From NCBI GenBank assembly GCA_001247695.2, contig LGRX02028972.1, forward strand, positions 1-64,000: a stretch of DNA of 64,000 bases. The letters are read 5' to 3'. Below the pieces are notes generated by a model, which saw only the letters and a program-made list of their open reading frames with translations, was not told the DNA's origin and searched no databases. The stretch is from Cymbomonas tetramitiformis (Eukaryota; Chlorophyta; Pyramimonadophyceae; Pyramimonadales; Pyramimonadaceae). Below, piece by piece: positions 2,536 to 64,000 of this stretch (the stretch's first letter is position 1; every line of letters begins with the position of its first letter). Made by a program: the position numbers and the translations under genes.

Positions 2536-3159
2536 TTGAGTGCTAGCTCGTCGCTCGCAAGGTGGTGGGCAGCCCTTTGGCGTGCGAGTGGGATGCTTCC
2601 CCGGAGTTCAGGATCAAAATATATTATCAACGCCGTTGTTGCCATTGCTGCTGTAATTACCACAGTGCCAATGCAGTCATCATCACTTCTGCCGCCCGCA
2701 CCACTTCCACAATAGCCACTGCCACTGCATCTCTGTACTTTCTGTCCTCTCTGCCCTCTCTGCCCTGTATCGCAGACTTTCAGGGAGCTGACTGATGTTC
2801 GCCACCGCCACTGCCGCTGCCACTGCCTGGTGTTTTTGCCTATGTTGCTGCCGGAGGGCACTACTGGAGTATACTTTTTCCAAATGCTTTCAAGACCAAT
2901 GGAGTTGGGGTGGGGGAGGCTGTGAAAATCCTGTCGAGATGCAGGAGACCCGTGCGCAGGGGGGTGCGATGTTGGCGACCGCAACTGTCCAACGTGTCCC
3001 GCAGGTTCGCTCCTCACCTCTATTGATTGGAGCACTTGCTTTCCAGCAGCTTACCGATGCCTCGTTGGGTTGGTCCACAGTGAATTTTGCTCGAAGTATC
3101 ACCTCTGGTTTTCAAAATCCAGCACATGCGTGTTGCAACACCACCACGAGGTTGCCCAT
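2536..3159. other. No supported gene
   Basis: Short alanine/threonine-type low-complexity frames only. No domain or splice-supported exon is seen. Confidence 0.5.
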
Positions 3160-3252
3160 GCACCAATGAGTGTGCAGGAGGCGTTGCTATGCACCAATGA
3201 GTGTGCAGGAGGCGTTGCTGTGCACCAATGAGTGTGCAGGAGGCATTGCTGT
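3160..3252. repeat. 31-bp minisatellite, 3 copies
   Basis: The unit GCACCAATGAGTGTGCAGGA plus an 11-base GGCGTTGCTAT-type tail repeats three times with single-base differences. Confidence 0.9.
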
Positions 3253-6200
3253 GCACGGATTGGCACCATCATATGCACTCACAACGTCTGCCACATTCCA
3301 AATTATGTGCAGGCAGTCACTGCTCTTGTGGCACGTGGCATCCAGTGCCGAATGCCGGCTTCTGCTACCACCGCACTGCCTACTCCGATGTCGGATGCTT
3401 CCACCGCTGCTTGCCACCAGGAAGGTAAGCCCGTCCACTGGGCGTGTGCCTGCGCCCTACACCTCCCGTAGAATATCCCATAGCAGTGCACATATCTTGG
3501 CAAGGCAACGGTTGATTGTCTGAATCGCCACATGTTTTTCACAACGAAGGATTTGTTGTTCGCATAGCCCGATCTCCGCAGGGTGGGATGCCTGAGGGTG
3601 CCTGATACCGCGGTAGAGCAGGGGGCATCATGCCCACATGCCAAGACTCGTACTGTAGGCTAAGACCCATACTGTAGGATGCGCAACATCGTGGCGCCGA
3701 CAGCATTAGCAGTTGTGGCAGATGAGGGGAGCTAACTAGTTTATTGGGAACTTTGTAATAGGTGTGTTGGTGAGCTTGAAGGAGAATGCCCTTCTGACTC
3801 TCGACAGTATGAGCAGCAATGTGCCCGGCATGAGAAGCGCGGATGATGCCCGCTTTGTCACATTAAGCAACGCTCCCGGCACCGAAAGCATTTCCAGAAC
3901 AAGGCAGAATTCCGTGCTAATGTGCATACCTGACCTATATTGCAAACTAGGTGAACACGCAGTAAACCGTATAGAAGTGGTGATGGAGATTCATGTTGGT
4001 CCATCCTGCGGGTTCATCAGGTCACCGGTGCCGTAAAATGTTCCCAGCAATCAGAGCCGTTATATTTGGAGTAGATTTTATAAAGCTCAGCGATATCGCG
4101 CGCTCTCGACAATAGAATGCCAACTTTTAAAACCATCTGTCGCCACCAGTTGAATTTAACATTGCAATCAGCATCCGTTGTCGAGGATTAATGTCAAACT
4201 ATCCCGAAATAATCGATACCCAAATATACATTCGATACCAAACCGCACGTAGTCATCGACCATATAAGCGCGGGTACGACCGGTACAATTACAGTAGACT
4301 CCGACCATATGCCACTCTATATGCAACACCTATTTAACGAGGTAGTATTAATTATGTTCATTAGGAGGTCAGCATAATGTCGCGAATCAGCCAGCAGGGC
4401 AGCCCGTCCGAGAGTCTCGGCGCAGCCCCCCTATCAGCTTCCATAGTCTGTGACAAGTCTGATGACTAGTTAGCACTATATCACAGTAGTCCGGGTTTTT
4501 AGGTTTCCGCCGTTTCCGACATAGCCGTTCCGATTTAACTGGGTATTCACGTATTAATGGTATTATTCACGGTATCCGAATACAACTCTTGTTTTTATTC
4601 TGACTCAGTGATGTACCGTTTGGCCATATCTCGCCACAAAATCGAATTAGTATGCACGAACAATAAGATATAATGGACTATGGGGACGAGATCGAGGACT
4701 TATGCCCCCCTTGCGTGTATCGTGCACATACCACGAATCATACAAATAAAATATTCATAACCAAAGTTCATTTCCGATGTATGCGTCGCGTGTCTGCGCC
4801 ATATCGCCGAGCGCTTTGTCGGGTTCCCGCTTCGAGATCAGCAACCTCCAGACTTCAGATTTCAGAAAGTCGTTTCAGTTTTGGGATTTTTGGTTTGCCC
4901 ACTCTTGGACGATTTGGGGGGGAGGTATAGGGAATAAACATTCTTTATTTTTCACCGGAAGAGTCAATCAATGAAATCTCAACTATCACATCCATGCAAA
5001 CTCCGCCAAACCTGAACCCAACTCCCAGCATCGGACCCGTCTAATCGGAGGGGAAAGACGCGCGATGTGCTTGCAACTCCGCCGCTTCACGTGGCAAAAC
5101 GAGTGTTAGTCCAAGAGGGAGTGAGCCGCTGACTTACAGACAAATTGAAGGTGCCGGAGCCTTCCAAGACCGGTCGGTACGTGCATAGCGATCATCTATT
5201 ATAGGGAGGGCTTTAACTTTTGCGAGTAATAACTTGGGACATTTGTAGTTTGGTAAAGAGGGATAGGCTTAACCGTTGTGCACCTACTAATATCACGTCT
5301 CCGATAGGAATATGCAATTTTTTTCTTTTTTCATCTATTATCAGAATATCGGTTGTCTTCGCGAATTAAAAAAAAAAAAAACGACTGATTAGCCACAAGA
5401 ACGTTTTTCCAGTCTTTTAATGTATTGTGATTTCAACGTCTAAAACCAATGATATACACAAGGCAGGTACGACCGACGGAGACCATGTGGGACCTCTTGC
5501 CCGGCCTAAGCTTGCACCTACAATGGTCCCGGGCTTCGTCCCTTGTACACTCACCCACCTCCCCCACCCCGGATTCTAAGACCGCGATTCCCCGTCCCTT
5601 GACCCAAGTGCGCGACTCAATACAGGTCCACCTCTCAACGTACTCATTTGTGCCCACCACCTCCCTGTCCAAGGGTGACGCCCTACACACTCCGTCTCAC
5701 CCCAAGCACGCCCCCTCTTGAATTAAACCTTCTAGCAATAAAAGCTTTTAGCATCCCACACACTGATGGTGCACACCTCGTCAAGTGACCATCCTAAGCT
5801 TATATTTCCCACTCGAACAGCTTGAGCCTCCAGCTTTCTCTCTTCACATGCAACCCGGCATTGCTGGTGTGGTACCCGCAAGGGCCTGGACGCCCCCATG
5901 GTGCTATTGATACTCCACTTGAGAGGCATTCTCATGCATTCCTCGAAAATTACGAAACTCTCAACGAGTGTATCAAAAGGCGTCACCTTCCCCTCTAGCT
6001 TTGCCTGGGTATTATGTTGAGCAACCGAGCACCAACGTGAACGTCAACTTGAAGGAAAGCCACAGTGTTCTGAGGTCCGATTTTGCGTTTGGCTGATATT
6101 ACTTATGGTGTGTGGGTTCCATGCTTCAAATGAAAGGAGTAACGGCAGTTAAGGTAATAGCTTGAGACAGACTCGTGAAGAGACTCGTGTGCTCTCACTA

Positions 6201-6814
6201 AGAGAAGCGTTGCCGACTTTATATGGACTAACAGTTAGTATTGATGCCACGTGTACGGGTTACCGAGGTAACGCATATGCCTTACTCAAAGGGGCCGAGC
6301 TTCATGCGACTTGCCAGGGCGTTCCTCCTTTTCAGTGAAATAGAATGCATACTATTTGTTGAACTAAAAGTCCTTGCAAAGTATCTCAAATTATGCAACC
6401 GGACACGGTGAAGTCTGAGCTTTACATAACTTTCACAAACGACAGTGTACAAACTATCCCTGCATGGGATGTAGACTGCGGGAATCGCCGTGCTAACAAG
6501 TGCCATGCTCACTGCGCAAGAAAGGGTCGGTCAGCAGTAGTGATTGGAAGTCATGCCAAACAGCATGGAAAGCCCGCCCGTACGTCTTCGCTCCCTGTGC
6601 CGCCAAATAGTAACTTGCTTGCGGGGCCGCACGTTCCATCCCCCGGACTTAGTCGATATCTCAGAGGCCTATCAGGTACGACAATCCATACGGAAGCATG
6701 GGTAGGCCAACCAGGCCCTGTTTGAACTGCTTTCGGACAGATATTCCACGGAACGGATGGTGTTAAAATAACACATTTTTTACTACGCCAGCGCCTACAC
6801 TGCAACCATGAACC
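3253..6814. other. AT-richer gap without a supported gene
   Basis: Base composition falls relative to the first 3 kb. Open frames are short (120 codons or fewer), unrelated to families I recognise, and overlap on both strands. A 14-base poly(A) run lies near 5370. Exons of a host gene could be hidden here, but none can be supported. Confidence 0.4.
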
Positions 6815-7132
6815 TGACGACAAGGTCGCAGCCTTGGTTCCCCCAGACACAGACGAACACCGGTCCTGATTTCACGAGAGGTGATACGTGGCTTCTTGTT
6901 ACACTTTGCAAGTTTAGCAGATTCGCCAGCGATCTTCTCGAACATGTCGTTAATTAATGAGTGCTTGATGCCCATGGCCTTGCTGGAGATACCAGTATCA
7001 GGGTGCATCTGGTTGAGTACATGTAGATCTTGTAGGACTCCATAGACTTATTCTTCTTCTTCTCAGCGCCTCTAGCATAGTCTTTGTAACACGGTAATCT
7101 CTGGCTGGAGTTTTCTCAGCCTTAGGTGCCAT
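6815..7132 (-). pseudogene. Histone H2B pseudogene
   Basis: Reading from 7132 down, an MAPKAEKTPA N-terminus (plant/algal H2B start) is followed in a second frame by [15 protein letters not shown]. In a third frame come [20 protein letters not shown] and [11 protein letters not shown], then the [16 protein letters not shown] helix of the H2B fold. The YKIYMY to LNQMHPD joint lacks about two codons and shifts frame. After VRLCL the segment matching ELAKHAVSE is missing, and the GTKA end is in another frame. At least three lesions make it non-functional as one protein; real H2B is a core nucleosome histone. The order of pieces is intact, so this is a decayed copy rather than a chance match. Splicing does not explain the joints. 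Confidence 0.85.
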
Positions 7133-7377
7133 TTTTGCTGCCGGTGAGTTCACTGGGCGAAAGAGGGGTCTGGTCTCTGGTGTTGTCGTGCCAACTGCCT
7201 TTTCGTTTTGATGATATGAAGGTTTCCACCGCACGATTGAATTTGATTTTGTTTATACCCATACGATAGAATAGTGTTACAGGTCAGCTATTTACTTTTA
7301 TCTAAATAAGATAAAGTGATTGCATAGAACATGTCAACGTGGACCAGTAGCCGAGTGCCACTGGTTTCAGCCTTGTA

Positions 7378-7464
7378 TGCGGGAGGTAGGGGGATCGATG
7401 CCCCCCTTCTCCAAATTCCATAAATGAGGGGAAGTAGCTCAGATGGTAGAGCGCCCGCTTAGCA
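7378..7464 (+). tRNA. Circularly permuted tRNA-Ala (AGC)
   Basis: The 3' half (7378-7413, tRNA positions 38-73) lies upstream of the 5' half (7428-7464, positions 1-37), with a 14-nt linker at 7414-7427. Re-joined, the halves give a complete 73-nt cloverleaf. The acceptor stem is GGGGAAG/CTTCTCC, including the G3:U70 wobble that identifies tRNA-Ala, with discriminator A73. The D arm is GCTC/GAGC with loop AGATGGTA. The anticodon stem is CCCGC/GCGGG with loop TTAGCAT (anticodon AGC), the variable loop is AGGTA, and the T arm is GGGGG/CCCCC with loop ATCGATG. Relative to a typical plant tRNA-Ala, acceptor pair 6-67 and one anticodon-stem pair differ with compensating changes across the two halves, so the halves belong to one molecule. 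The break is at 37/38, the canonical intron site. Permuted genes are known to mature through a circular intermediate cut by splicing endonuclease; that route is inferred here. The internal B box lies upstream of the A box. Confidence 0.88.
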
Positions 7465-7658
7465 AATCACACGCTTTCTTTTGATACCTGTCTCCTGTAA
7501 GTAAATACAGTTTTTGCATTTTACTCTCGACTCATCGTTTGCGGGGATGTCATCATGTTTTAAAGTCCTCGTTGCGGCGTCGAGATGAAGACTCCAACTC
7601 CGCGTCCCCCGTCATTTCGAATTTCCGGACTGAGGACTTTGTGACACTCTTGTTCCCA
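7465..7658. other. Trailer of the permuted tRNA and unassigned DNA
   Basis: The bases after the 5' half read AATCACACGC and a T-rich stretch (CTTTCTTTT) follows within about 15 nt, which could serve as a Pol III stop. Nothing else is recognised up to the foldback repeat. Confidence 0.4.
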
Positions 7659-7746
7659 GAGTTTCTCCGAGCGCGGCCGCTGCGCGGCCTGCGACACGCG
7701 AGCGAGGGTCGACGTTACAGTTGATCGAAGAGGCTCGGAGAAACTC
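7659..7746 (+). repeat. Small foldback element, copy 1
   Basis: Perfect 14-bp arms GAGTTTCTCCGAGC (7659-7672) and GCTCGGAGAAACTC (7733-7746) enclose a GC-rich core and a GACGTTACAGTTGATCG block. The same unit recurs inverted at 33543-33608, and a relative with different but matching arms lies at 60501-60590. The lead-in ACTCTTGTTCCC is also shared. Confidence 0.75.
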
Positions 7747-8065
7747 CTTATGGACTTATGGACCCAGAACGTTACAAACCCTAAGTCTAATTTAGTCCAT
7801 AATAAGCTCTGGGAAGAGTAGAGGACTTTGCATCTCGCATTTTCTGCGATGACAACCTGACGTTCACAGTTCAGCTCCTCGTATCAGGACTATTTTTCTC
7901 ACGCTCCTCAAAGGAGCGATGAGAAAAAGAGGCCCGAGATTCTTGTAGAAACGTCAGCCAGCATCAGCCACAGAGATCTCGTTCGATCGAGTTCGGTCGG
8001 GATTTTGCTTGAAAATGCGAGACGCAATTTTGCACCGAAAGTCCTCAAATTCTGGCCGCAAACGA

Positions 8066-8112
8066 GAATAATGATAATATAACATTTACGTTGAGAATAA
8101 TGACAAAGTCTT
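8066..8112 (-). mobile_element. LINE 3'-tail fragment
   Basis: Read on the minus strand: a GACTTTG box, then CAACGTAAATGTT, then AT-rich TTATTA-like repeats. This matches the 3' end of the methyltransferase LINE at 13829-13900 and is a severely 5'-truncated relative. Confidence 0.6.
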
Positions 8113-8267
8113 TTTTCCGACGCTAGTGGCCGACACGTCCTTCCTTAGCGGCCTAGCCGCTCCTGCTTCCATGCCATTTGGAATGCTTCTTGCTCTTGCA
8201 GACAGTCATGAATGAGGGGAACAGCCTCTCGTTGTAGATCGTTCCGCGGAAGGCGTTGCCTTACTCA

Positions 8268-8446
8268 ACATCGACGTAAATGTTTTATTATTACAGTATT
8301 ATTAGAATAATAATAATAATATAACATTTACGCTGAGAATAATGCCAAAGTCATTCAGTCAGTCCGCTGTAATCCTGCAAGCAGGCAACTGAAGAACAGA
8401 GGGAGCTGGAATCGTCCTCATAGCGCACCCCGAAGGGCTCAGTTAG
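8268..8446 (-). mobile_element. 5'-truncated LINE 3' ends, tail to tail
   Basis: On the minus strand, 8446-8298 carries CTGCTTGCAGG, GACTTTG and GCGTAAATGTT followed by (TTA)n, as in the 3' UTR at 13829-13915. Abutting it, 8268-8297 holds a short copy of the same tail in plus orientation (CGTAAATGTTTTATTATTA). Two insertions thus meet at their (TTA)n ends. The LTR at 8447 starts immediately afterwards. Confidence 0.65.
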
Positions 8447-12028: not shown

Positions 12029-13828
12029 TCAGTCCGTCCGAGGCATCCTCCTGCCCACAAGCATGCTCACATCTGCCATGGCACAGCCCAGGAAGCCGAG
12101 GACAACAAGTGTGGAGACGAGGGCATGTCTGTAGAAGGGTACACCACCCCTACCTACACCCCTACGCAGGGCAGGTCCAGTGACGGGCGGTGGGGGGTCA
12201 TAGTACGGTCTTTCCCCTGAGCCACGGGGCTCAGGGCTGTCGGGCTCGTCCGAGGCCCCGACTACGGACCCCGCAGACACCCCGTGTCCGCTGGCAGGGA
12301 GGCCCATAGCCGTGGCATATAGTCCAGCTCCTGCGGTGACAGAGCATGGGCCAGAGCTGGGAGGGAAGGGCACTACCGGAGGTGGTGCTCGTGGTTCCCT
12401 CGAAGTCGTTGCGGCCGAAGCCGGCAGGGTGTCGTACCACTGGGTGGGCTGGGTGTGATCCTCACACCACAGCCTGTCCCAGTGGTCCTGCTCCCTGTCG
12501 GTGAGGCCGGGAGGAGTGCCGCGAAGGCCACGCCGAAGCTCCTCGAAAGGGCCGGGCTCCGGTCTAGCCACAGACTCCAGCCGTGAGCTCCAAGACCTCG
12601 GCCCCCAAGCCCCTTGCGACTCCCGGGTCTCACTGAGATGTTGTTCGGTCATTGATTGGAACCGAAAATCACCTGCCAACACCATGTCAGCGAACAACCC
12701 GGAGCCAGGCTCCAGGGGTGTCTCGTGTGCGAAGAGCGCTGACACGGGGTGCATACAGGTGTCTCCATGCTCGGCATCGCCCGGTGTGTCACCCGAGAAC
12801 GGCGCGGTAGGATCCAACGTCTGAGCGGTCCCGTCTAACACCACACCTGCGTCGAGATGCGACTGGGTAGACGCAGGCTGTGGGTCACACGGTGAGCATG
12901 TGATGCTCGGGTCCGCACGGTAGAACGACGAAAGATCAAGCGGTGTCTCAGCGGCAGCGACAGAGTCCATGCGGGCATCGACCGGTGGGGTTGGCGTGGT
13001 GTCACGATCGACACCACCCACCCCGAAGCTGCCAAAATGAACTCTCCCTAGTGAAAGGGAAGAGTACGGCTCCTGAAGATCTTGCTCATCGTAGCCCGCC
13101 TCCTCCCCTGCATAGCAAAAGGCTTGAAACTTTGCGGAAGCCTTCCGCTGGAGTCGATCCCACTCGTCATGTTGTTCCTGAGTGTAGGATTCATGCTCCC
13201 AAGCATCCCACTCAGAGTCAGTCCACTCCTGTGGTGCCCAAGCGGGTGCATGAGAGGCCTCATCCCCCTGGGTGAGGTAGGCGGCAAAGGACAGGGATCC
13301 GTCGTCAGGGTACGTGCACACCGACTCCGAAGAGTCACAAATGTTTGGTGTGCCGTGTTCCCAACAGACTGCCTGAAAGGCCTCCTCCGAATGCTCATAA
13401 GCTGCCTGAAAGCGAGCTGCCAGAACATCCGTGAAGGCCCCTTCGGCTAGTGCCTCGGGGTCAAGCCGCATGGAGTGTGCCGCCAGGTGCTGCATGTGTG
13501 TACAGTCTGCCTGGCGGTGCCTCCCACCGCAGGACCAACAGTTGCCCATGAACTGCTTGGAACCCGGGTGGAAAGTGACTCGGGGCTTCTGCGATTGCCC
13601 CTTGCCCTTCTTGCCTTTGCCTTTGCCTTTGCCTTTGCCTTTCCTGCGGATTCCCTGTGGCCAATTCCCCCCCTTCGGCAAGGGGGAGGCAGCGAATCGG
13701 AAACTCTTCCCCTTCCCCTTAAAGGGGTGGGAAGGCCGCCCAGGATAGTAAACATCACGCGGGCGGGCAGGGCGCAGGTCAGGGGCTCCCCTGGAATCCA
13801 GACCGCCACGTTCACCGTGGCGGTGTCC
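12029..13828 (-). CDS. Gag-like protein, C-terminal part (outer LTR element)
   Basis: About 600 residues read down from the LINE-like junction at 13828. The order is an Arg/Gly-rich linker, a SPLPKGGNWPQGIRRKGKGK basic tail encoded partly by a (CTTTGC)n-like microsatellite, and a CCHC-type knuckle (CWSCGGRHRQADC; C-x2-C-x3-H-x4-C). A long acidic Asp/Glu/Trp-rich region and a hydrophobic segment (STLVVLGFLGCAMA) follow, close to the stop at 12029. The stop is about 60 nt from the 3' LTR. The N-terminal capsid-like part is not here; a related one is at 17579-18677. Whether the two fragments were once one gene is unclear because their shared 229-bp overlap has diverged. The upstream bases to 13918 are LINE 3' UTR, not gag. 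Confidence 0.75.
   Translation of the reverse strand, partial: GHRHGERGGLDSRGAPDLRPARPRDVYYPGRPSHPFKGKGKSFRFAASPLPKGGNWPQGIRRKGKGKGKGKGKKGKGQSQKPRVTFHPGSKQFMGNCWSCGGRHRQADCTHMQHLAAHSMRLDPEALAEGAFTDVLAARFQAAYEHSEEAFQAVCWEHGTPNICDSSESVCTYPDDGSLSFAAYLTQGDEASHAPAWAPQEWTDSEWDAWEHESYTQEQHDEWDRLQRKASAKFQAFCYAGEEAGYDEQDLQEPYSSLSLGRVHFGSFGVGGVDRDTTPTPPVDARMDSVAAAETPLDLSSFYRADPSITCSPCDPQPASTQSHLDAGVVLDGTAQTLDPTAPFSGDTPGDAEHGDTCMHPVSALFAHETPLEPGSGLFADMVLAGDFRFQSMTEQHLSETRESQGAWGPRSWSSRLESVARPEPGPFEELRRGLRGTPPGLTDREQDHWDRLWCEDHTQPTQWYDTLPASAATTSREPRAPPPVVPFPPSSGPCSVTAGAGLYATAMGLPASGHGVSAGSVVGASDEPDSPEPRGSGERPYYDPPPPVTGPALRRGVGRGGVPFYRHALVSTLVVLGFLGCAMADVSMLVGRRMPRTD
13600..13828 (-). repeat. 229-bp direct repeat, copy 1
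   Basis: Matches 17579-17807. It starts exactly where the (TTA)n tail of the LINE-like segment ends. About 14 substitutions separate the copies, nearly all transitions, plus length variation in the CTTTGC repeat. Confidence 0.85.
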
Positions 13829-16800
13829 TAATAATAATAATAATAAAACATTTACGCTAGCAAAGGGGACAAAGTCCTGAGAGTGCGGTATCCCTGCAAA
13901 GCAGGCTAGTGAAAACACCAGGGGCTACTCCCTCTACTACCCATTGGGGACACGGAACCATCTTATATTGCAAGACTTTTGAAAATTATTGCAGGAGGGT
14001 TTGAAGAAAGTCGTTTGACTGTTGCACAGCTTCTGTTTCTGTCATGGTTTCACTGCTCGAGATGTCAACTGTATGCGGATCAGTGTTTAAGGTGGTGGTG
14101 GTGTTTAACAGAAACATGTCTCGACCATTTTTGGTGTGTTGCCTACAAATTCTTGAAAGTTTTTTAAGGAGAGGTTTAATCTTGCCACGGGGAACACCTA
14201 TCGTGTTGAGGAAAGTACCAAAAAGAGGAGGGAGGTATCCCATGAGTGTAAGAACTTTGGGCCATTTCACGGTGCTTATGAAGGGCTTGGAATTTGCGTT
14301 GGTGATTGTCGTGTCATGGTGACCACCATAATAATGCTCAGCATCACTCTGATGATAGGGAGGGTCTTGAGTGGGCCATGGGCAAAGCGAGGAAGGAAGT
14401 ACTTTGTCGCCTTCGTTCATAACTTCATTCCAAATATCAGGGCTGACTCCTGTGTATTCTAGCCTCTTCTCCGTGACTCTGGACTTTGGAAGGACATTGA
14501 GGAACCATCTGGCAATCTTTTTCTGTGTAGGTCTCCAATCAAAGGCTGGTTGAGTATCACTGGGTGCACTGTCTATAGCTATGATAACGACATCCGAAAA
14601 GTCATCCTTATAGCATCCGCCACCTGGAAGAACGTAGGGGTCATCACCCGTCCAATAACCATGTGGGATAAATGGAATAGTGTTATGCGGGAATCTGAAA
14701 ACAAGTTTAAAACCTTTGTTGAACCATCTCTTTTGGTTTTTGGGAGACAGCGGAAGAATCCATGTTCCTGAAAATCCGGGGACGGTGTTGGCCGCTTTAT
14801 GTCCCATTTCCAAGGTAGTCATAACCGCCGATGATTTGCCCTTTTCTTTCCCATCAAAGGGGGGATTTCCATAAACGATTCTGCCGATGCCTGTTATCGG
14901 ATCCACGTGGGCATCCCAAGCGAGACCATCAAAGCCAATTTTCCCATGATGGCAGAAGGGCCTGAGAGCTTTCTTCATTCTTGTGGTGGGTATGCATCTT
15001 CTCGAGTGAATTCTAGGGTGGGCATTTAGTGGGTTGGAGAAAAGTTCACAGCCGTTTTTGTCAAGGTTCCTGTCATCCACCAAAATATCTAAGAGGCTTC
15101 TTCTGATTGCATAGCAGTTTTTTGGATCCCCCGATTCAAACTTACATGCATTGAGTGCTTCGTGAATATCGTGTGCCCTATTCGAGTACTCCGCAAGTGA
15201 GCATGGTACTGCTTTGTTGGAAAGGCGGTGCCAGGCCAAAAGTTTCCAAAACTCTTTCTTCTGGACATATTGGAGTTCAGGATATTTAATTGTCCCCTTG
15301 ACATGGTCCACTTCAGGTTTAGCGGCCACAGCAATGGTATTCTTTTTTGAACTTGATGGTCGGTACATGCTAGCTTCCGGGAGAGCGTGCAAGTATAATT
15401 CCTCCTTCATTTCCTGTCTAAGGTCAGCAAGTGGAAAAAGTTTCGATGGCTCAGTCTTGATGTATGTGGTACCCTTTCCAGGGTTTAGTAGTTTGGGCTT
15501 TTCTGGGATTTCTTCAGCAATGATTTTCCTTAGCTCGCCATCTTGGGTTGTTCTAAGACTATGCAAGCTATTATTATGTCCTGAGCATTCAAGTTGGATG
15601 TGTTCGAAGGTGCATTTAGTATTCTGTTGGCAGTAGGGGCAGTTTTCAGTCCCGATTTTCCCCAGTTTAAATAAACGTGTTGGAGAGGCTTGGAGACCCA
15701 GGAGTTCTCTGCTTCTAGAAGCGGTGAAAGCTTTAGGTGTTATTTTGGAAATATCTTTAGTGGGGGCGGTGTTATTCTCGTTGAGCATTCTCAAGTACTT
15801 CCCTTGGGACTGTAGAGTTCTCCAATTATGATAGTGTGAGAGACGTTGAATTCTTCTAATGTGACTACGAATATCGCCTAAGATAGGGACCTCAAAAAAG
15901 AATAACGAGAAGGGTAGTTCCTCGGCAGGGTCGTAGCGGGAGATGTCTAGACAGCCCCCTCTGAATGAGGCTCTTTTAGCAGTACGGACCACTCTGTCAT
16001 GGACTTTGTCATTATTGTGACCCCTTATCCATTTGAGGATGATTTTGCTGTGGTCTCCTTCACTGTAAAAACCAAGTTCTTCTAACAGTAGGCGAACAGC
16101 TTGCACATCTCTGCGATTAGCTTCACGTAATTTGTCCCGAGCACTCATGGATCTGCCATCTTTTGTTACAGCAGATATTGCTGCCATGGAGTCAATGGCA
16201 TGTACCATTGGAGTAATAGATTTGAGGAGTTTCTCTTTTTGTTCTGTGAGTAGAAATCGCAGTCCCGCAATCTCAGCAGATGTGCTACTCGGGTTTTGTA
16301 TATCTTCCTTGATAGGAAGCCCCAATGCGGAGAAAGTTCTTGAGGGGGGGATATTCATCTTCCGAACAAGTGGCATCCCGTTGTCAAAGTTTTTTATGGC
16401 ATATGCTGCACCACTGCATGCTGTTTTCTTTCCTGCAAATAGAGAACCATCGCTTGCCATATCATAATCTTCCATTTGTTTGCTCTTTTCGGCGTTGGGG
16501 GTGGATTCTTCTTCCGAGTCGCTAGGGCAGCTATATTCACTTTCTTCCTCCGCAGTTTTATTTTTCATTCTGGCAATAATGGTCTCATACTGTCTATCTG
16601 AGATGTAATCATAGTGTGAGTTAATATCACGGACTGTAGCAAGGACAGAAGAGGGCGGGTCCATATGGTCATTATATTCGAAAATAGAACCTGCTGGAAT
16701 TAGGATGCAACCGTCATTGGTGATGCTATATTCAAAGTCGTATTGAAAACTGTTGGTACCTTCGATTCTGATAAAGACATTAGGGTTTATGGCATTGTTA

Positions 16801-29269: not shown

Positions 29270-29430
29270 CCCTAACAACCTAGCAATTTTGCGTTCACGA
29301 GTTTCAAGAAATCCGGAAGCTACAACCCTAAACCCCGGATCAAACCCTAAAACCCTAAATCCGGATGAAACCACAAAACCCTAAATCCCAATACAACCCT
29401 AAATCCCGATGAAACCTTATAACCCTACGG
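29270..29430. repeat. Degenerate interstitial CCCTAAA repeats
   Basis: At least eight AACCCTAA-type units (for example AACCCTAAAACCCTAAAT) are spaced by short GGAT/GATG inserts. This is the plant/green-algal telomere motif, here internal and decayed. Confidence 0.7.
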
Positions 29431-33611: not shown

Positions 33612-36049
33612 TGGGAACAAGAGTAGCATGCGGATGGGGATGGCACAGCCGAGCGACAGCGACAGGACAATTCAACAAACGAGAGCGAGAGTCACGGAGG
33701 GGTCAAAATTTATCTTCTTTCAACCATAACTTGCGGATAGCATACGAGTGCACTCTACCAACATATAACATATATATACAACGAACATACAACATTGCCG
33801 ACAACTAGCTGGGGTGACGCGCAGCGCGACTGCCTCACAGGTGTCTGTTCGTGTGCACGTGGTTATCACCCGTCCGTCCTCTGCGTCGTCGGCAGCTTCT
33901 CGACGCTCGTGCCCACCTGGACCATCGGATTTGTATCCATGCTCAAAGCGCCCCTTCTTCGCATTATGATACAGGAGGCTGAAAACATATAGGTGTACAC
34001 GTATCTACGCGCTAACTGGCGAGGAGAGTCCTGCAAACAAGCATGCCTCGCGCCAAAACTGTACTTGCGTTGGCACTGTTTTTGGCTGGGCAACGCGTGG
34101 CATCCTGCGCCGAAGGTCATTCCCCTGCTGTTTCCGACGTCGAACACCTGCATGTTTTGTCGCATACCCACAAGACACGAAGCAGCCTCGCCGCAGTGTC
34201 GATGTTGCTTTCTCTGCTCAAAGCAAAAAATGGACTTGAGTTGAGATATGCTCGCGTAGTGTGGACTCGCCGCGATTCGCATATCGCGCTATCACCCTGG
34301 CCTGCCTGAGATCCCGATACCTTGCAACCTAACTTTGACTATCGACACTTTCAACAACTTTCAGGGCTGCCAGTCTTGCCCATAACCGGACTACACACGT
34401 GGGACAGGGCCTGCCCAAATATTAGGCTACATTTTCGCTCGTAGGATCAACTGGAGAATAGAGGGGCACGCGTACCGCGTACTCAGTACCTGCCACTACG
34501 CAGTCCACCAGGATAAGCGTAGACTGCTAAACGACTACGAACAAACGACTTTTTGTCTCGATTCTCGCTTGCCGTCAAGCACGCTGTGTGGACCTCAGGC
34601 TCGCACAACTCTTGCCCATACTCGCAGTCGTATACTCGCGTATTTCTCCACTGATGCGCTCTGCTTCTTCACTCGCGCCATCATCATCGAGGCAAGCATC
34701 CCGTAAGGTGTATTCCTGTCGCCATCTTCGCGTTCAGAGTTGCTCACAGACCGACTCCTGGCCAGCAGGACCCGGCAGAGGTGGAGGCCTCACATTGGAC
34801 CAACGACCCGCCCAGCCCCGTGTCGCTCCCGACCAGCGCGGCGGCGAGAAGTCTGGCCGCGTCGTCACGAGCCTGACATCCCGATCCGCTCCCACCGCAA
34901 CGCCTCGGGGTCCTGGTGCCGGTTCTGGTGCCGGTCCTTCGACCGGTAGTAAAGTTGCACTTCAAGCGAAAGCGCCAGCCGCTGTTACCGCAAGTGCATC
35001 AGGTCCCGCGAGGGCGCCACCCCGAAAGCCTCACGCACCTCCGACGCGACCCACAACTTCCGTCCGCCGACCTGTCGCGAAGGAGTCCGAACGCGCCACG
35101 CGATGGAGTAACCTCCCCAAGCGAAAGGTACGCTGCCTGCCCCGGCCGCGAGGCCCTCCGACGCTCGCGACACTCGCGCATCGCGCCGCTCGCACGGGTT
35201 CCAAACGCGACGACCTGCTTCCAGGTTAGTTTACGAGTAGGGTTTGACTGAGCCCTTCTGCTCGCTAATGCGGCTCTCAAGCTCAAAGTGAGGAAGAAGA
35301 CGACCCGCCTCTGGAAACGAGTTGACAGTGTGAAATCTCACTGCAGAGCACAGTCTTGCACAGTTCAGTTGGCGGCGGCCGGTGTCCGTTGCCGATGGAG
35401 TGAAGCTTGAGGAGGACGGGGGCTACCCACCTACTGGCTTGCGGCCGGTGTCAATGCTTCTCAGCTTGAGGGACTGCGAATTGGTGTCAAGCCAGGAGAC
35501 GCCACTGCGTGGTGCCGTGCCGTTGATGGGCAGCCACTGCTTCCCATCCACGTTGAAGAAGGACTGCCCGAGCGGCCCTGCCACGCTCTTCGGATCTGCC
35601 GACCTCAACACCTCGATCTCGCGAGCTGGCAACTGCCGGTGAGCCCTCGCATCCCCTGCGCTTCGGCTCGCCTGCGGCAACGTGCAGGGGCAGACACTTG
35701 TGTTTTGCGAACCTGCTGCTGATGGAGGAAATCACTTAAAGAATCCGTAGATGTGGTGACACATACTGTGAAGCCCCCCGCGTCTACCGCAGCACTTCAA
35801 CCGTGCTGGCTGTCGGTGCTTGCGAGCAAGAATCGGGCGTTTTCCGTCCATACAGCAATTGCACTCTCTGTGGTGTCTCCCGTCGAAATATGTTTTGCGG
35901 AGCGGAAGCATCCCGCGTCCCTTCCCCGGTCCCTGCAGCAACATGGCCTCCGCTAGGCCTCCTGCCTGCCTCTCAGGGGTCAGCCCCGTTTGGCAGCTGC
36001 ACACTCCCGCGACGCTGTCGAGACTCCGAAGCGCTTATCGTGCTGGCAG
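33612..36049. other. Gene-poor stretch, possible unrecognised exons
   Basis: A plus-strand frame at 34043-34309 starts with a signal-peptide-like segment (MPRAKTVLALALFLAGQRVA). A Pro/Ala/Arg-rich frame runs at 34588-35229. A minus-strand frame at 35423-35680 (FFNVDGKQWLPINGTAPRSG) has normal protein composition. None has supporting splice partners, so they are not called as genes. The upstream exons of the glycosyltransferase at 36050 should lie here. Confidence 0.35.
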
Positions 36050-52807: not shown

Positions 52808-55800
52808 CTATGCCTGCCCGCGCCCCTCCAGATCGCGCCTCGGCGGTGCCCCCTCCACAGTGCCCAGATGCTCCACCTCCCGCCGCACGTCCTCCATGCT
52901 CTCCAAAAGCCTCGATGCCATCGCGCCTGCCTCGCCTGCCTCACCGGGAGCCTGCCCAGACCGCTCACGCTGCGTTCCCTCAGATTCCTGCGTCCCACCG
53001 CCAGACCCATCCTGCGTGGCATAGTCTGTCTCCTCGAACGCGTCCTCCCACGCTCTGTCCATCAGTGCCAACCTCTCCGCCCCTTCCCGTCGGTCCGCCT
53101 CCCCCCGATCCAGGTCCGGGCCCATGCCTCCTCCCACACGCCCTCCGCCAGCCCAACGCCACCCACTTCCGGCCGGACATCGCCCTACAGCCCGCCTGAT
53201 GATCAGCCCTGCAACCCCCCGTGCAAGCGCGAAAGAAAGCAGCCGGACCCACTTCTCCTTCCAGCCCACCGCCCCGCCACGTGCCGCTTCCTCGTCCTCG
53301 TCCTCGTCCCCATTGCCATCCACCTGCTCTCCCCCTTCCGCGTTCGCCTCCATGTACCGCCGCTCCCTGAAGCGCCGCTGCGTCTTCCGAAGGAATCCAT
53401 ACGCTGCAGGCCCTAGCCCACCGTACACCTCCACCCCAAAGGAGATGAAGTGATGTGGGCGGACATCCCCGTACGTCGCCACCTTGCTCTCCTCTACCTT
53501 CTTCGCCGCCGCCCCGGGGGCCATCATGGCCGCTCCCAGGTGCGCGTCTGACATTGGCCGCGCCGTGGCCACATCAAACAGCACATGCTGGCTCGGTCCC
53601 TCCGCATCCAGCACTGTCACATCCGGGCAATGATTCCGTGAGTAGGTCAGGTAGCCCGCGAAGTCATCGTGCAATGCAGACGCCAAGGGATAGGCAGACT
53701 TGGCCACCTCGAACAGCACCCTCTGCAGTTTGTGGTGGATGAAAGAGTACCAATTTCCTCCCCCAGCCCCACTCCCCCCCGGCATGCCAGTAAGTGTGTC
53801 CCGGTGGGATCCCGCTCTCCTCCACAATCGGGGCACTCCTCCACTTGGCCAAGGAGGGGCTGCTCCGCATGAAGAATGTGCCGCAGGGCCACCCGGTATT
53901 CCGCCGAACTGAGCTCCAGGGCTGGGCAGCATGGAACACCCCTCAAGAAAGCAGGCCCAATGCTGTTGAAGGTCACCGAGAAAAGCCAGGGGAGCCGAGA
54001 CGCCCCCACGTGCCCAGCCAGCCAAAGCCAATCCGCAGAGTGGAGGACAGCAGCATAGACCCGTTGGGCACGTTTTTGAGACCTGCTGTAATCACTCAAC
54101 TTCTTGACGTCGTCCGCCTTTGGCACTTGTGGTGGCAAATGCTCATTTGCTCCCCTCGCCTCCCCAATCACCTCCATCGCCTCCGACACCTTCTGCATGG
54201 CCGCTTGCAAAGAATTAACATATGGCAAGTCGCTCTCAGCCCTGAGGTCCTCGGTCCCTGCCGTCACTGTTGGAAAGAGCTCCCGCATATCCTCCCAGAC
54301 TTGCGCAAACCCGCCAAGCCAGGCCGCACTGCTCACCCTCGCCGCCTTAGTCAGGCCCATCCCATGCGGGAGGGTGGCAAACTCACAGGAATGCCACGCC
54401 AATCCACCGCCAGGCAGCAAGTCCCGCAACGCCCCCTGCATCCTCCTGTCATGCTCCTCAGCCGCCTCCCGCATCATCTCCGGCGGCACACCTCGCAGCC
54501 AGAACCCCAGCCTCGGGTGGGCACAGAATCGAAGCAGGAGCCCCTGGGCCTGCGCATGCCCAAGCTTGTTCAAGAGGGGCAGGATGCCACATAACTCCTC
54601 CACCTTCTTCAACATCTCCACACTGACCGCCTCTGCCTTCCCCACCGGCACCCCCAAGACATCGATGAAGTCCAGCTCCCCCCGTGCACCCGGCATCCCG
54701 GCCTCGAAGCAACTGGCGTCCCCCTCAGGCGAGAAAGCCGCTGACTTCACCGGCTGAATATCCAGGCCAATCGCCACTGCCTCCTCCATATAAGTCTCAT
54801 ACGCGAGCGCCGCTTCAACCGGAGGGCCCAGGAAGAAAGCGTCATCCAAGTAGGCAAAGATGACCACGCTAGGGTGTCCCTCCTGAACCCGCTCCAGCAC
54901 CACCTGCAACGGGGCAGCCAAGTAAAGTGGCCCCAGGGGGTCCCCCTGCTGCGTGCCCTCCTTCGACTTGACAAATCGCATCACCGAGCCATCAACGCCC
55001 CCCAGCCGAAACCCCAGGTTTGCATCCACCCCATAACAAAGGTCCGTCCATGCCCACAGCTCCGGGAAGTCCCGCTCGATAGCCTCAAACATTGCCTCAC
55101 GGTGCACCGCATTGAAGGCATTCCTGGCATCTGCCTTAACACAGACCCATTCCGGGTGCCGATCCAGGGCCGCCTGAACAGTGTGGACCCCCAGGTCCGC
55201 CCCTCCCTTCACCGCAACCCCAATCTGGGCCGCCCGCAGTCCACCATGCTCATCATCCTGTCGACGCCCACAAAATCGAGCCCTGAGGGCCTTCGCACGC
55301 TGCCTGCATATGACCTTCGCCACTAGCTTCCGGAGAACTTCGCCACACGCAATGGGCCGGACGTTGACGCCGAGGTCGTCCTTCAGCAACGCCACTAACC
55401 TAGCGCCTGCCAACCACTCCCGAACCCCCGCCGGGGCCCGACCTGCCGCCAGATGGTTGCACACCTCCAACAGTGCATCTCGCCTACCAGAGACATGGAC
55501 CGCCCACATATGCTCCCAGCGCCACTGAGAGCTGCCCGGTCCCGAGGCCCGCGGCAGATTACGCATTCAAACGCCTTCTCATCCAGCTCAAGCGCCTGCC
55601 CCCAAAGCTCCCGCCGGCGATCCTCTCCCACATCTTGCCTCCTGCCTGTCCCAGCCGGTTGCAACCGCTCCAACTTCAGCAACGTCTCCCCCGTCGCTGG
55701 TGCCAGCTTGGCCAACTCCCGCCTCTTTGCTGCCTTTCCCAGCTGCCCCGCCTTCACCAACCGCACAGCACACCAACCGCAACCGCACAGCACCGCGCAA

Positions 55801-60871: not shown

Positions 60872-62440
60872 TGAGCTATGGCGCTCGGAACCGAGCAAAT
60901 GAAACTGATTTGGAAAGGTATTGCACTCCTCTTTTGGTTTCCGTGTTCTATGTTGGACCTAGGGCGGATGTTTGTTTGTTATTCACGTGTGAACGTAGAG
61001 CAGGCGCAGGCTCCGCTGTTCCTTGGGCATCTTTGATGTTTCATAGCATGAGCTACAGATGTCGGAACCGTACAATTCGAAAAGTTTTCGGCAGCTAAGA
61101 GTGCCCCCTTTCAGTTTAACTTGCGTACGTTAGCCCTAGGGCGGATGTTTGTGAGTTATTCTAACCACGGTTTGTGGCTGGCTTGTGCATTGCAGATAAT
61201 TGGCCATCTTAGATATTTCTTCGAGGGAGCTATAGAGCTCGGAACCGAGCAAATGAAACTGTTTTGGAAAGGTATTGCACTCCTCCTTTAGGTCCCGTGG
61301 CGTATTGGAGCCCTAGGGCGGATGTTTGTTTGTTATTCACGCGTGAACATTGAGCAGCCGCAGGATCCGCTGTTCCTAGGGCATCTTTAATATTTCATAG
61401 CATGAGCTACAGATGTCGGAACCGAGCAAATCAAAAAGTTTTCGGCAGCTAAGAGTGCCCCCTTTCATTTTAACTTGCGTACGTTAGCCCTAGGGCGGAT
61501 GTTTGTGAGTTATTCTAACCACGGTTTGTGGCTGGCTTGTGCATTGCAGATAATTGGCCATCTTAGATATTTCTTCGAGGGAGCTATAGAGCTCGGAACC
61601 GAGCAAATGAAACTGTTTTGGAAAGGTATTGCACTCCTCCTTTAGGTCCCGTGGCGTATTGGAGCCCTAGGGCGGATGTTTGTTTGTTATTCACGCGTGA
61701 ACATTGAGCAGCCGCAGGATCCGCTGTTCCTAGGGCATCTTTAATATTTCATAGCATGAGCTAGAGATGTCGGAACCGAGCAAATCAAAAAGTTTTCGGC
61801 AGCTAAGAGTGCCCCCTTTCAGTTTAACTTGCGTACGTTAGCCCTAGGGCGGATGTTTGTGAGTTATTCTAACCACGGTTTGTGGCTGGCTTGTGCATTG
61901 CAGATAATTGGCCATCTTAGATATTTCTTCGAGGGAGCTATAGAGCTCGGAACCGAGCAAATGAAACTGTTTTGGAAAGGTATTGCACTCCTCTTTTAGG
62001 TCCCGTGGCGTATTGGAGCCCTAGGGCGGATGTTTGTTTGTTATTCACGCGTGAACATTGAGCAGCCGCAGGATCCGCTGTTCCTAGGGCATCTTTAATA
62101 TTTCATAGCATGAGCTACAGATGTCGGAACCGAGCAAATCAAAAAGTTTTCGGCAGCTAAGAGTGCCCCCTTTCAGTTTAACTTGCGTACGTTAGCCCTA
62201 GGGCGGATGTTTGTGAGTTATTCTAACCACGGTTTGTGGCTGGCTTGTGCATTGCAGATAATTGGTCATCTTAGATATTTCTTCGAGGGAGCTATAGAGC
62301 TCGGAACCGAGCAAATGAAACTCTTTTGGAAAGGTATTGCACTCCTCTTTTAGGTCCCGTGGCGTATTGAAGCCCTAGGGCGGATGTTTGTTTGTTATAC
62401 ACGCGTGTACATTGAGTTGGCGTGTGCATTGCACAAAATA
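60872..62440. repeat. 354-bp satellite array (dimer of about 177-bp monomers)
   Basis: The box TATAGAGCTCGGAACCGAGC or its variant recurs at 60877, 61231, 61585, 61939 and 62293, an exact 354-bp period. Each unit has two related halves, both starting GAGCTA...TCGGAACCGAGCAAAT and both containing CCTAGGGCGGATGTTTGT, so the basic monomer is about 177 bp. Copies 2-4 are almost identical. A decayed monomer runs from about 62400 to 62600. Confidence 0.93.
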
Positions 62441-62619
62441 GGGTTTCGAAGCTCCTTCCTCAAGGGAGCTATGCAACTCGGATGAGGAGCAAGCGGTGAA
62501 GTTTTAAAAAGGTAATTCACTTCTCTTCACTTTCTTTGGCCTATGTGGGCCTTGGGGGAGATGGCAAAGTGTTGTTTTGATGTGTAGCGCAAAGCACGTG
62601 AGGCCATGCATACGCCTTT

Positions 62620-64000
62620 TAGATAGGGTTTTCAGACCCCACCCTTTCGAGGGGATCACTGTGTGACATCATAAAACGGAGCACATAGGTATGTAGAGCC
62701 GGGTGTGAGGAAAAGGGGGCACTTTTCAAAAGTGAATTTGCCTTTCTTATGCTCCTATGGCGCCCATTCTTAGGGTAGTGGGTAGGGTTCGCATAGGGCG
62801 GGACGTGAGCTCCTGCATCGCAGGGTTTCAGACCCCCCCTGTCGGGGGTATCACTGTATGACATCATAAAACGGAGCATATAGCTATGTAGAGCCGGGTG
62901 TGAGGAAAAGGGGGCACTTTTCAAAAGTGAATTTGCCTTTCCTATGCTCCTATGGCGCCCATTCTTAGGGTAGTGGGTAGGGTTCGCATAGGGCGGGACG
63001 TGTGCTCCTTTATCGCAAGGTTTCAGACCCCCCTGTCGGGGGGGTCACTTTGTGACATCATAAAACGGGGCACATAGCTATGTAGAGCCGGGTGTGAGGA
63101 AAAGGGGGCACTTTTCAAAAGTGAATTTGCCTTTCCTATGCTCCTATGGCGCCCATTCTTAGGGTAGTGGGTAGGGTTCGCATAGGGCGGGACCTGAGCT
63201 CCTGCATCGCAGGGTTTCAGACCCCCCCTGTCGGGGGTATCACTTTGTGACATCACAAAACGGAGCACATAGCTATGTAGAGACGGGTGTGAGGAAAAGG
63301 GGGCACTTTTCAATAGTGAATTTGCCTTTCTCATGCTCCTATGGCGCCCATTCTTAGGGTAGTGGGTAGGGTTCGCATAGGGCGGGACCTGAGCTCCTGC
63401 ATCTCAGGGTTTCAGACCCCCCTGTCGGGGGGGTCACTTTGTGACATCATAAAACGGGGCACATAGCTATGTAGAGCCGGGTGTGAGGAAAAGGGGGCAC
63501 TTTTCAAAAGTGAATTTGCCTTTCCTATGCTCCTATGGCGCCCATTCTTAGGGTAGTGGGTAGGGTTTGCATAGGGCGGGACGTGTGCTCCTGCATCGCA
63601 GGGTTTCAGACCCCACCTGTCGGGGGTATCACTTTGTGACATCACAAAACGGAGCACATAGCTATGTAGAGCCGGGTGTGAGGAAAAGGGGGCACTTTTC
63701 AAAAGTGAATTTGCCTTTCCTATGCTCCTATGGCGCCCATTCTTAGGGTAGTGGGTAGGGTTCGCATAGGGCGGGACGTGTGCTCCTTTATCGCAGGGTT
63801 TCAGACCCCCCCTGTCGGGGGTATCACTGTGTGATATCACAAAACGGAGCACATAGCTATGTACAGCCGGGTGTGAGGAAAAGGGGGCACTTTTCAAAAG
63901 TGAATTTGCCTTTCCTATGCTCCTATGGCGCCCATTCTTAGGGTAGTGGGTAGGGTTCGCATAGGGCGGGACGTGTGCTCCTTTATCGCAAGGTTTCAGA
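62620..64000. repeat. About 195-bp satellite array, continues past the window
   Basis: GGTTTCAGACCCC recurs at about 62824, 63019, 63213, 63408, 63602, 63797 and 63992, spacing 194-195 bp. Units carry a short CCCCCTGTCGGGGG hairpin and GGGCACTTTTCAAAAGTGAA, another palindrome. Minus-strand frames of 100-160 codons across it are repeat translations. Confidence 0.93.

Follow-up and report, generated by a model that had tools for sequence, protein, structure and literature searches.

Organization of the locus

The sequence analysed, called the window here, is a stretch of 64,000 nucleotides from the green alga Cymbomonas tetramitiformis. Between positions 7378 and 7464 its plus strand carries the two halves of a tRNA-Ala(AGC) in reversed order: the 3' half comes first, and the 5' half follows after a 14-nt linker. 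Order, linker and coordinates agree with an earlier reading made from the letters alone (the sequence-only reading). The locus consists of the following elements.

7241..7334, plus strand: AT-rich upstream region, candidate promoter (GC 0.277)
7341..7377, plus strand: leader of exactly 37 nt, directly 5' of the 3' half, with an in-register, diverged likeness to a tRNA 5' half
7348..7358, plus strand: A-box-like element TAGCCGAGTGC in the leader, one mismatch to TRGCNNAGTGG
7378..7413, plus strand: tRNA-Ala(AGC) 3' half, positions 38-73, 36 nt (joined cloverleaf, ARAGORN, type II scanner)
7392..7402, plus strand: B box GGATCGATGCC within the 3' half (pattern GGWTCGANNCC)
7414..7427, plus strand: linker AATTCCATAAATGA, 14 nt, lying between the two halves
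7428..7464, plus strand: tRNA-Ala(AGC) 5' half, positions 1-37, 37 nt (joined cloverleaf, ARAGORN, type II scanner)
7435-7446, plus strand: internal A box TAGCTCAGATGG within the 5' half
7465..7482, plus strand: trailer with a Pol III-like T4 terminator at 7479-7482, the first T4 past 7299

An AT-rich stretch upstream, a T stretch downstream and the lack of a terminator between the halves are as expected for a type II permuted gene. GC is 0.277 over the 94 bases 7241-7334, compared with 0.471 in 6601-8400. In the available text of the review PMC3978253, some green-algal permuted genes are described as preceded by AT-rich (ambiguous) stretches, and those of C. merolae as followed by T stretches. 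The T4 begins 15 nt past the 5' half, and no T4 lies between the halves; a T4 is equally near in 5.6% of window positions and 8.6% of the positions in 6601-8400, which makes it weak support by itself. The B-box pattern GGWTCGANNCC has four matches across the window, where about one is expected.

Several other features were observed in the window. A frameshifted histone H2B pseudogene lies on the minus strand at 6769-7132, about 200 bases upstream of the gene. In the frame 6769-7047, residues 9-69 align with H2B chains at E values down to 2.7e-44; the start (MAPKAEKTPA...) is in another frame, and the C-terminus is altered. A reverse transcriptase ORF occupies 53650-55566 on the minus strand (Pfam RVT_1, E 6.3e-10); the other eight long window ORFs tested gave no Pfam match. 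For a retroelement-like ORF at 12032-13924, also on the minus strand, scoring of 8000 candidates gave 11 relatives, ten from C. tetramitiformis and one a EukProt entry; identity to the nearest C. tetramitiformis relatives is 96% across 75% of the query and 88% across 85%. Of two further ORFs, one has a single relative and the other four, among them one from C. tetramitiformis with 47% identity across 33%; such ORFs may be mobile-element genes. A short tandem array at 29320-29416, with units like CTAAAACCCTAAATCC, resembles plant-type telomere repeats, here internal to the sequence. Two long satellite arrays with periods 177/354 and 195/389 fill 60873-64000, the second running past the window end.

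The joined molecule

Rejoining the halves at 37/38 yields a full cloverleaf of 73 nt with the G3:U70 pair, as the sequence-only reading had claimed. All 21 stem pairs are formed (acceptor 7/7 including G3:U70, D 4/4, anticodon 5/5, T 5/5), and the pairs made across the two halves are intact (12/12). The molecule keeps U8, A14, G18G19 and U33, and its anticodon is AGC. The T arm, which has A54, and the D arm are presumably both of the type usual for plant and green-algal tRNA-Ala(AGC). ARAGORN calls a tRNA-Ala(agc) on the joined sequence and likewise on the doubled sequence.

ARAGORN makes no call on the linear locus, nor in the whole window at default settings, and it finds no conventional or intron-bearing tRNA gene in the window either by default or with the intron option. 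Neither half of the site lies inside an ordinary tRNA call under ARAGORN default scoring, and Rfam at gathering thresholds has no match in the window. As both remain silent, standard annotation would miss the gene; the available part of the C. tetramitiformis genome paper names tRNAscan-SE for tRNA annotation. Elsewhere, a tRNA-Ala(cgc) with a 29-nt intron at 34941-35044 on the minus strand is silent at default settings and appears with relaxed ARAGORN scoring (-i116 -ps90); this call is probably due to chance.

The joint is ambiguous by one base: position 7377 is an A, the same as tRNA position 37, and a 36/37 joint is also compatible with the sequence. A joint-free scan of the window produced 5295 joined candidates; ARAGORN accepted 180 of them (57 as Thr(tgt), 21 as Ala(agc)). 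The 15 commonest classes comprise 157 of the accepted candidates, every one of them at this locus. ARAGORN alone does not fix the joint, and we set it at 37/38 because this gives a canonical tRNA of 73 nt with a 7-base loop, joined at the canonical splice position. The splicing motif there (BHB or relaxed hBH) is weak, with three of four central pairs possible (32:-3, 34:-5, 35:-6) and 33:-4 unable to pair; about 21% of random hexamers do equally well.

The predicted folds include the permuted arrangement. With each structure taken alone, the permuted cloverleaf has an energy of -31.9 kcal/mol versus -13.8 for the leader plus the 3' half. The circular form folds into the cloverleaf, and the minimum-energy fold of the whole predicted transcript includes it, the permuted pairs reaching 0.47-0.67 in the ensemble. 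The stability of the whole transcript is like that of its shuffles (z -0.76, with 39 of 200 shuffles at least as good).

Chance occurrence and natural controls

A permuted-tRNA search, which the sequence-only reading had proposed as a check, was carried out on both strands with our own type II permuted-gene scanner (linker 1-80, variable loop 4-6, maximum score 31), and the site scores 31 of 31. On the two strands of the window just one further match reaches 24 or more, a less good version of this very site that scores 27. Allowing variable arms of up to 24 in the scan brought up no other site. When 100 windows were resampled by a Markov model, 82 contained no match of at least 24, and the best score was 25 in 13 windows, 26 in two and 27 in three. 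Extended to a genome of 914 Mb, the tail of these 100 resamplings could allow a chance cloverleaf; what carries the case is therefore that the molecule in its entirety is an ordinary tRNA-Ala, not pairing alone.

Viral sequences served as a natural control. Patterns with the T arm before the D arm pointed to at least 136 viral loci (at least 120 from one scan and 16 from another). Among the loci listed, the same joining test together with ARAGORN accepted 13 candidates, and in 11 of these at least one half lies within an ordinary tRNA call. Neighbouring tRNAs can thus fake a permuted gene. No algal permuted tRNA was recognised among the 13. The viral contigs contained no match to a strict pattern for permuted Ala and none to a pattern for conventional tRNA-Ala(AGC), and a looser permuted pattern gave none in the genome contigs searched. 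A similar looser pattern matched once in the viral contigs, at two ordinary tRNAs side by side.

The other two accepted candidates resemble YrlA, a Y RNA-like family (Rfam RF02553). At L106 (IMGVR_UViG_3300028042_000006, 74.6 kb, positions 4192-4304) neither of the swapped halves is covered by an ordinary tRNA, and once joined they resemble a tRNA-Phe(gaa). The best Rfam match of the element is YrlA at 40.1 bits, under the gathering score of 69; it may be a Y RNA that has diverged, or else a permuted tRNA carried by a viral contig. The large protein adjoining it (4961-7270) has no Pfam match, and solved structures match it at E 0.26 at best, which lends no support to a Ro60 homologue. At L059 (IMGVR_UViG_3300046692_000144, 165 kb, positions 3032-3520) two successive swapped-half modules match YrlA at 45.4 and 36.0 bits, also under gathering, and visual inspection suggests that a tRNA-Lys(UUU) could be restored from the first by a joint near 28/29. 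Self-splicing intron halves, suspected by eye around both loci, gave way to YrlA as the best Rfam match. Given these controls (11 of 13 neighbouring tRNAs, two YrlA-like elements), damaged tandem copies and a YrlA-like mimic are taken as rival explanations of the algal locus.

The leader as a possible outer 5' half

The 37 nt directly upstream of the 3' half were picked for study after a relaxed ARAGORN match, so the statistics on them are post hoc; their register is fixed by the 3' half. That match, obtained with relaxed settings only, is a poor tRNA-Thr(tgt) at 7340-7414, composed of the leader stretch and the 3' half and lacking G18G19. Combined with the 3' half, the leader passes ARAGORN up to -ps95, a setting that 7 of 3000 random leaders also pass; at -ps90 the number is 55 of 3000.

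Read as positions 1-37, the leader (7341-7377) forms 13 of 16 pairs (acceptor 5/7, D 4/4, anticodon 4/5) and shows five of seven conserved features, G18G19 and A21 being absent. Seven of the 127,926 window 37-mers score as high, the leader and the true 5' half among the seven; the pair count alone is matched by 127 of them. In a gapless comparison the leader and the 5' half are identical at 17 of 37 positions (P 0.0055) and differ at 20, and a local alignment of the two is not significant (P 0.35). Plain local alignment thus lends no support to a tandem duplication with an outer half kept as promoter. A residual 3' half was sought in the trailer without success: 6 of 36 positions match (P 0.88) and 30 differ, and local alignment is again not significant.

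The A-box-like element at 7348 stands 44 nt before the B box at 7392, like position 8 to position 52 in an ordinary tRNA of this size. At random sites an A box as good occurs within 25-60 nt upstream in about 1.6% of cases and within 11-90 nt in about 3.5%, and, one mismatch being allowed, TRGCNNAGTGG occurs often in the window (39 times, 30 expected). We regard it as possible, if not quite probable, that the permuted gene is a fossil of the duplication route, in which the diverged outer 5' half would be kept as an external A box. Such an arrangement would present the boxes to TFIIIC in normal order and spacing, and the parent pair would have been intronless. The duplication model in the available text of PMC3978253 takes a tandemly duplicated intronic gene as its point of departure and has the outer halves lost, and the sequence-only reading had likewise proposed an intron-bearing ancestor. 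That proposal finds no favour here: the tRNA-like leader adjoins position 38 directly and leaves no room for an intron, so an intronless tandem pair fits better.

Interpretation and proposed mechanism

The best reading of the locus is that it is, with high probability, a circularly permuted (type II, 37/38) nuclear tRNA-Ala(AGC) gene. The 37/38 joint and the 14-nt linker fall within the range of known green-algal cases (type II linkers of 11-64 nt in the table of PMC3978253). Apart from the intron-bearing origin, the sequence-only reading stands on this point. Its remark that permuted tRNA genes are rare also fits the 2014 review PMC3978253, whose available text counts 34 such genes in six algae and one archaeon; literature consulted in part adds Auxenochlorella since then and, elsewhere, the nucleomorph of Amorphochlora amoebiformis.

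The following expression pathway is proposed. Pol III would make a single transcript of some 148 nt, spanning about 7335-7482, from the upstream region, aided by the A box in the leader and the B box in the 3' half. The transcript would fold such that the upstream 3' half pairs with the downstream 5' half. The tRNA-splicing endonuclease would then cut at 37/38, taking off leader and trailer, and a ligase would close a circle of 87 nt. RNase P and tRNase Z would excise the 14-nt linker, and after CCA addition the tRNA could be charged. The origin is less sure: a tandem pair of intronless tRNA genes may have given rise to the locus, the outer 5' half persisting in diverged form as the leader and the outer 3' half being lost. 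Selection on the inner halves would be the simplest reason for their being intact while the outer halves have diverged.

The permuted gene could also have arisen by reverse transcription of a circular or permuted pre-tRNA followed by reinsertion, in which case the likeness of the leader would be a coincidence or reflect an independent promoter. This alternative route is a published one (PMC3978253, in its available part), a reverse transcriptase ORF is present in the same window, and the P of 0.35 for the local alignment of leader and 5' half agrees with it; set against it is a leader score that 7 of 127,926 window 37-mers reach, at the one relevant register. We consider this origin rather unlikely, a judgement that stands apart from those on the other readings, as it concerns a variant of the best explanation and does not deny the permutation.

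The permutation would be only apparent if the locus held two damaged tandem copies of tRNA-Ala, both non-functional, the first having lost its 5' half and the second its 3' half. The sequence-only reading had argued against two unrelated tRNA fragments from base changes that it took to be compensated across the halves, where the firm observation is the 12 intact cross pairs; this argument leaves room for two related fragments, i.e. damaged tandem copies of one gene. The leader does resemble the 5' half of a first copy, adjacent complete tRNAs can mimic a permuted gene (11 of the 13 accepted among the viral loci listed, at least 136 in number), and the decayed H2B gene about 200 bases upstream indicates a neighbourhood with decayed genes. 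However, neutral decay is expected in both halves of each copy, whereas the visible decay is confined to the outer halves and ends at 37/38 on both sides, and the inner halves form one perfect tRNA with 12 of 12 cross pairs kept. Damaged copies are thus an improbable explanation. Least credible by a wide margin is an RNA that imitates tRNA in the manner of YrlA, a class of bacterial Y RNAs with a swapped T arm/D arm module that is not processed to tRNA. YrlA is the best of five weak Rfam matches in 7200-7700 (7381-7456, 29.3 bits, E 0.00023) and also matches, at 40.1 and 45.4 bits, the viral loci L106 and L059, whose halves are free of ordinary tRNAs. However, the gathering score of 69 is far above 29.3 bits, a mimic would have no need of G3:U70 or of an entire anticodon arm bearing AGC and U33, and the host is a eukaryote, whereas YrlA in the descriptions available is bacterial.

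Significance and comparison with known systems

Read as a permuted gene, the locus extends the green-algal type II genes tabulated in PMC3978253 to the class Pyramimonadophyceae and to an Ala(AGC) broken at 37/38. No published permuted tRNA gene for Cymbomonas or Pyramimonas was found in the literature searched, which included few subscription papers. The genome paper, in its available part, gives a genome of 914 Mb with 68% interspersed repeats; with such a host, permutation would not be limited to small, transposon-poor genomes. In the available text of PMC3978253 a shield against mobile elements is one reason to keep permuted genes, and Ostreococcus is said to have transposons too. Permuted tRNA and TFIIIC both occur in PMC3978253, PMC4090602 and PMC2735962, and the first of these points out that the A and B boxes of permuted genes are inverted and so unsuited to TFIIIC. 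If the leader is a retained outer half, it offers a testable promoter model for this problem, and the duplication-fossil reading, if true, would reveal one route to transcription for permuted genes whose internal boxes are inverted.

YrlA (RF02553) shares with the Cymbomonas locus a T arm, an acceptor-like stem and a D arm that stand in swapped order. It differs in that the locus reaches 29.3 bits against a gathering score of 69, and in that the Cymbomonas halves rejoin to a full anticodon arm.

The permuted tRNA-Ala in the table of PMC3978253 has a short linker as well, but it is of type IV, with a 59/60 joint, a linker of 8 nt and the anticodon TGC. The permuted tRNA-Cys(GCA) of Ostreococcus lucimarinus has a leftover 5' half beside it, as the present gene may have, and the review, in its available text, reads this as a duplication intermediate. 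In O. lucimarinus the leftover half lies downstream, whereas the Cymbomonas candidate lies upstream, adjoins position 38 and is strongly diverged.

The closest parallels are the green-algal permuted genes (Maruyama 2010, as reported in PMC3978253), which are likewise nuclear, with the 3' half first, a 37/38 joint, a short linker and an AT-rich upstream region. The set in the review's table comprises Ser, Leu, Cys, Arg, Asn and iMet, with no Ala, and comes from another class than Pyramimonadophyceae. Its joints are described there as hBH, whereas the motif of the Cymbomonas locus is incomplete. Its A and B boxes are inverted, while in Cymbomonas the A-box-like element of the leader would restore their order; a confirmed leader would make this gene a variant beyond the known permuted type.
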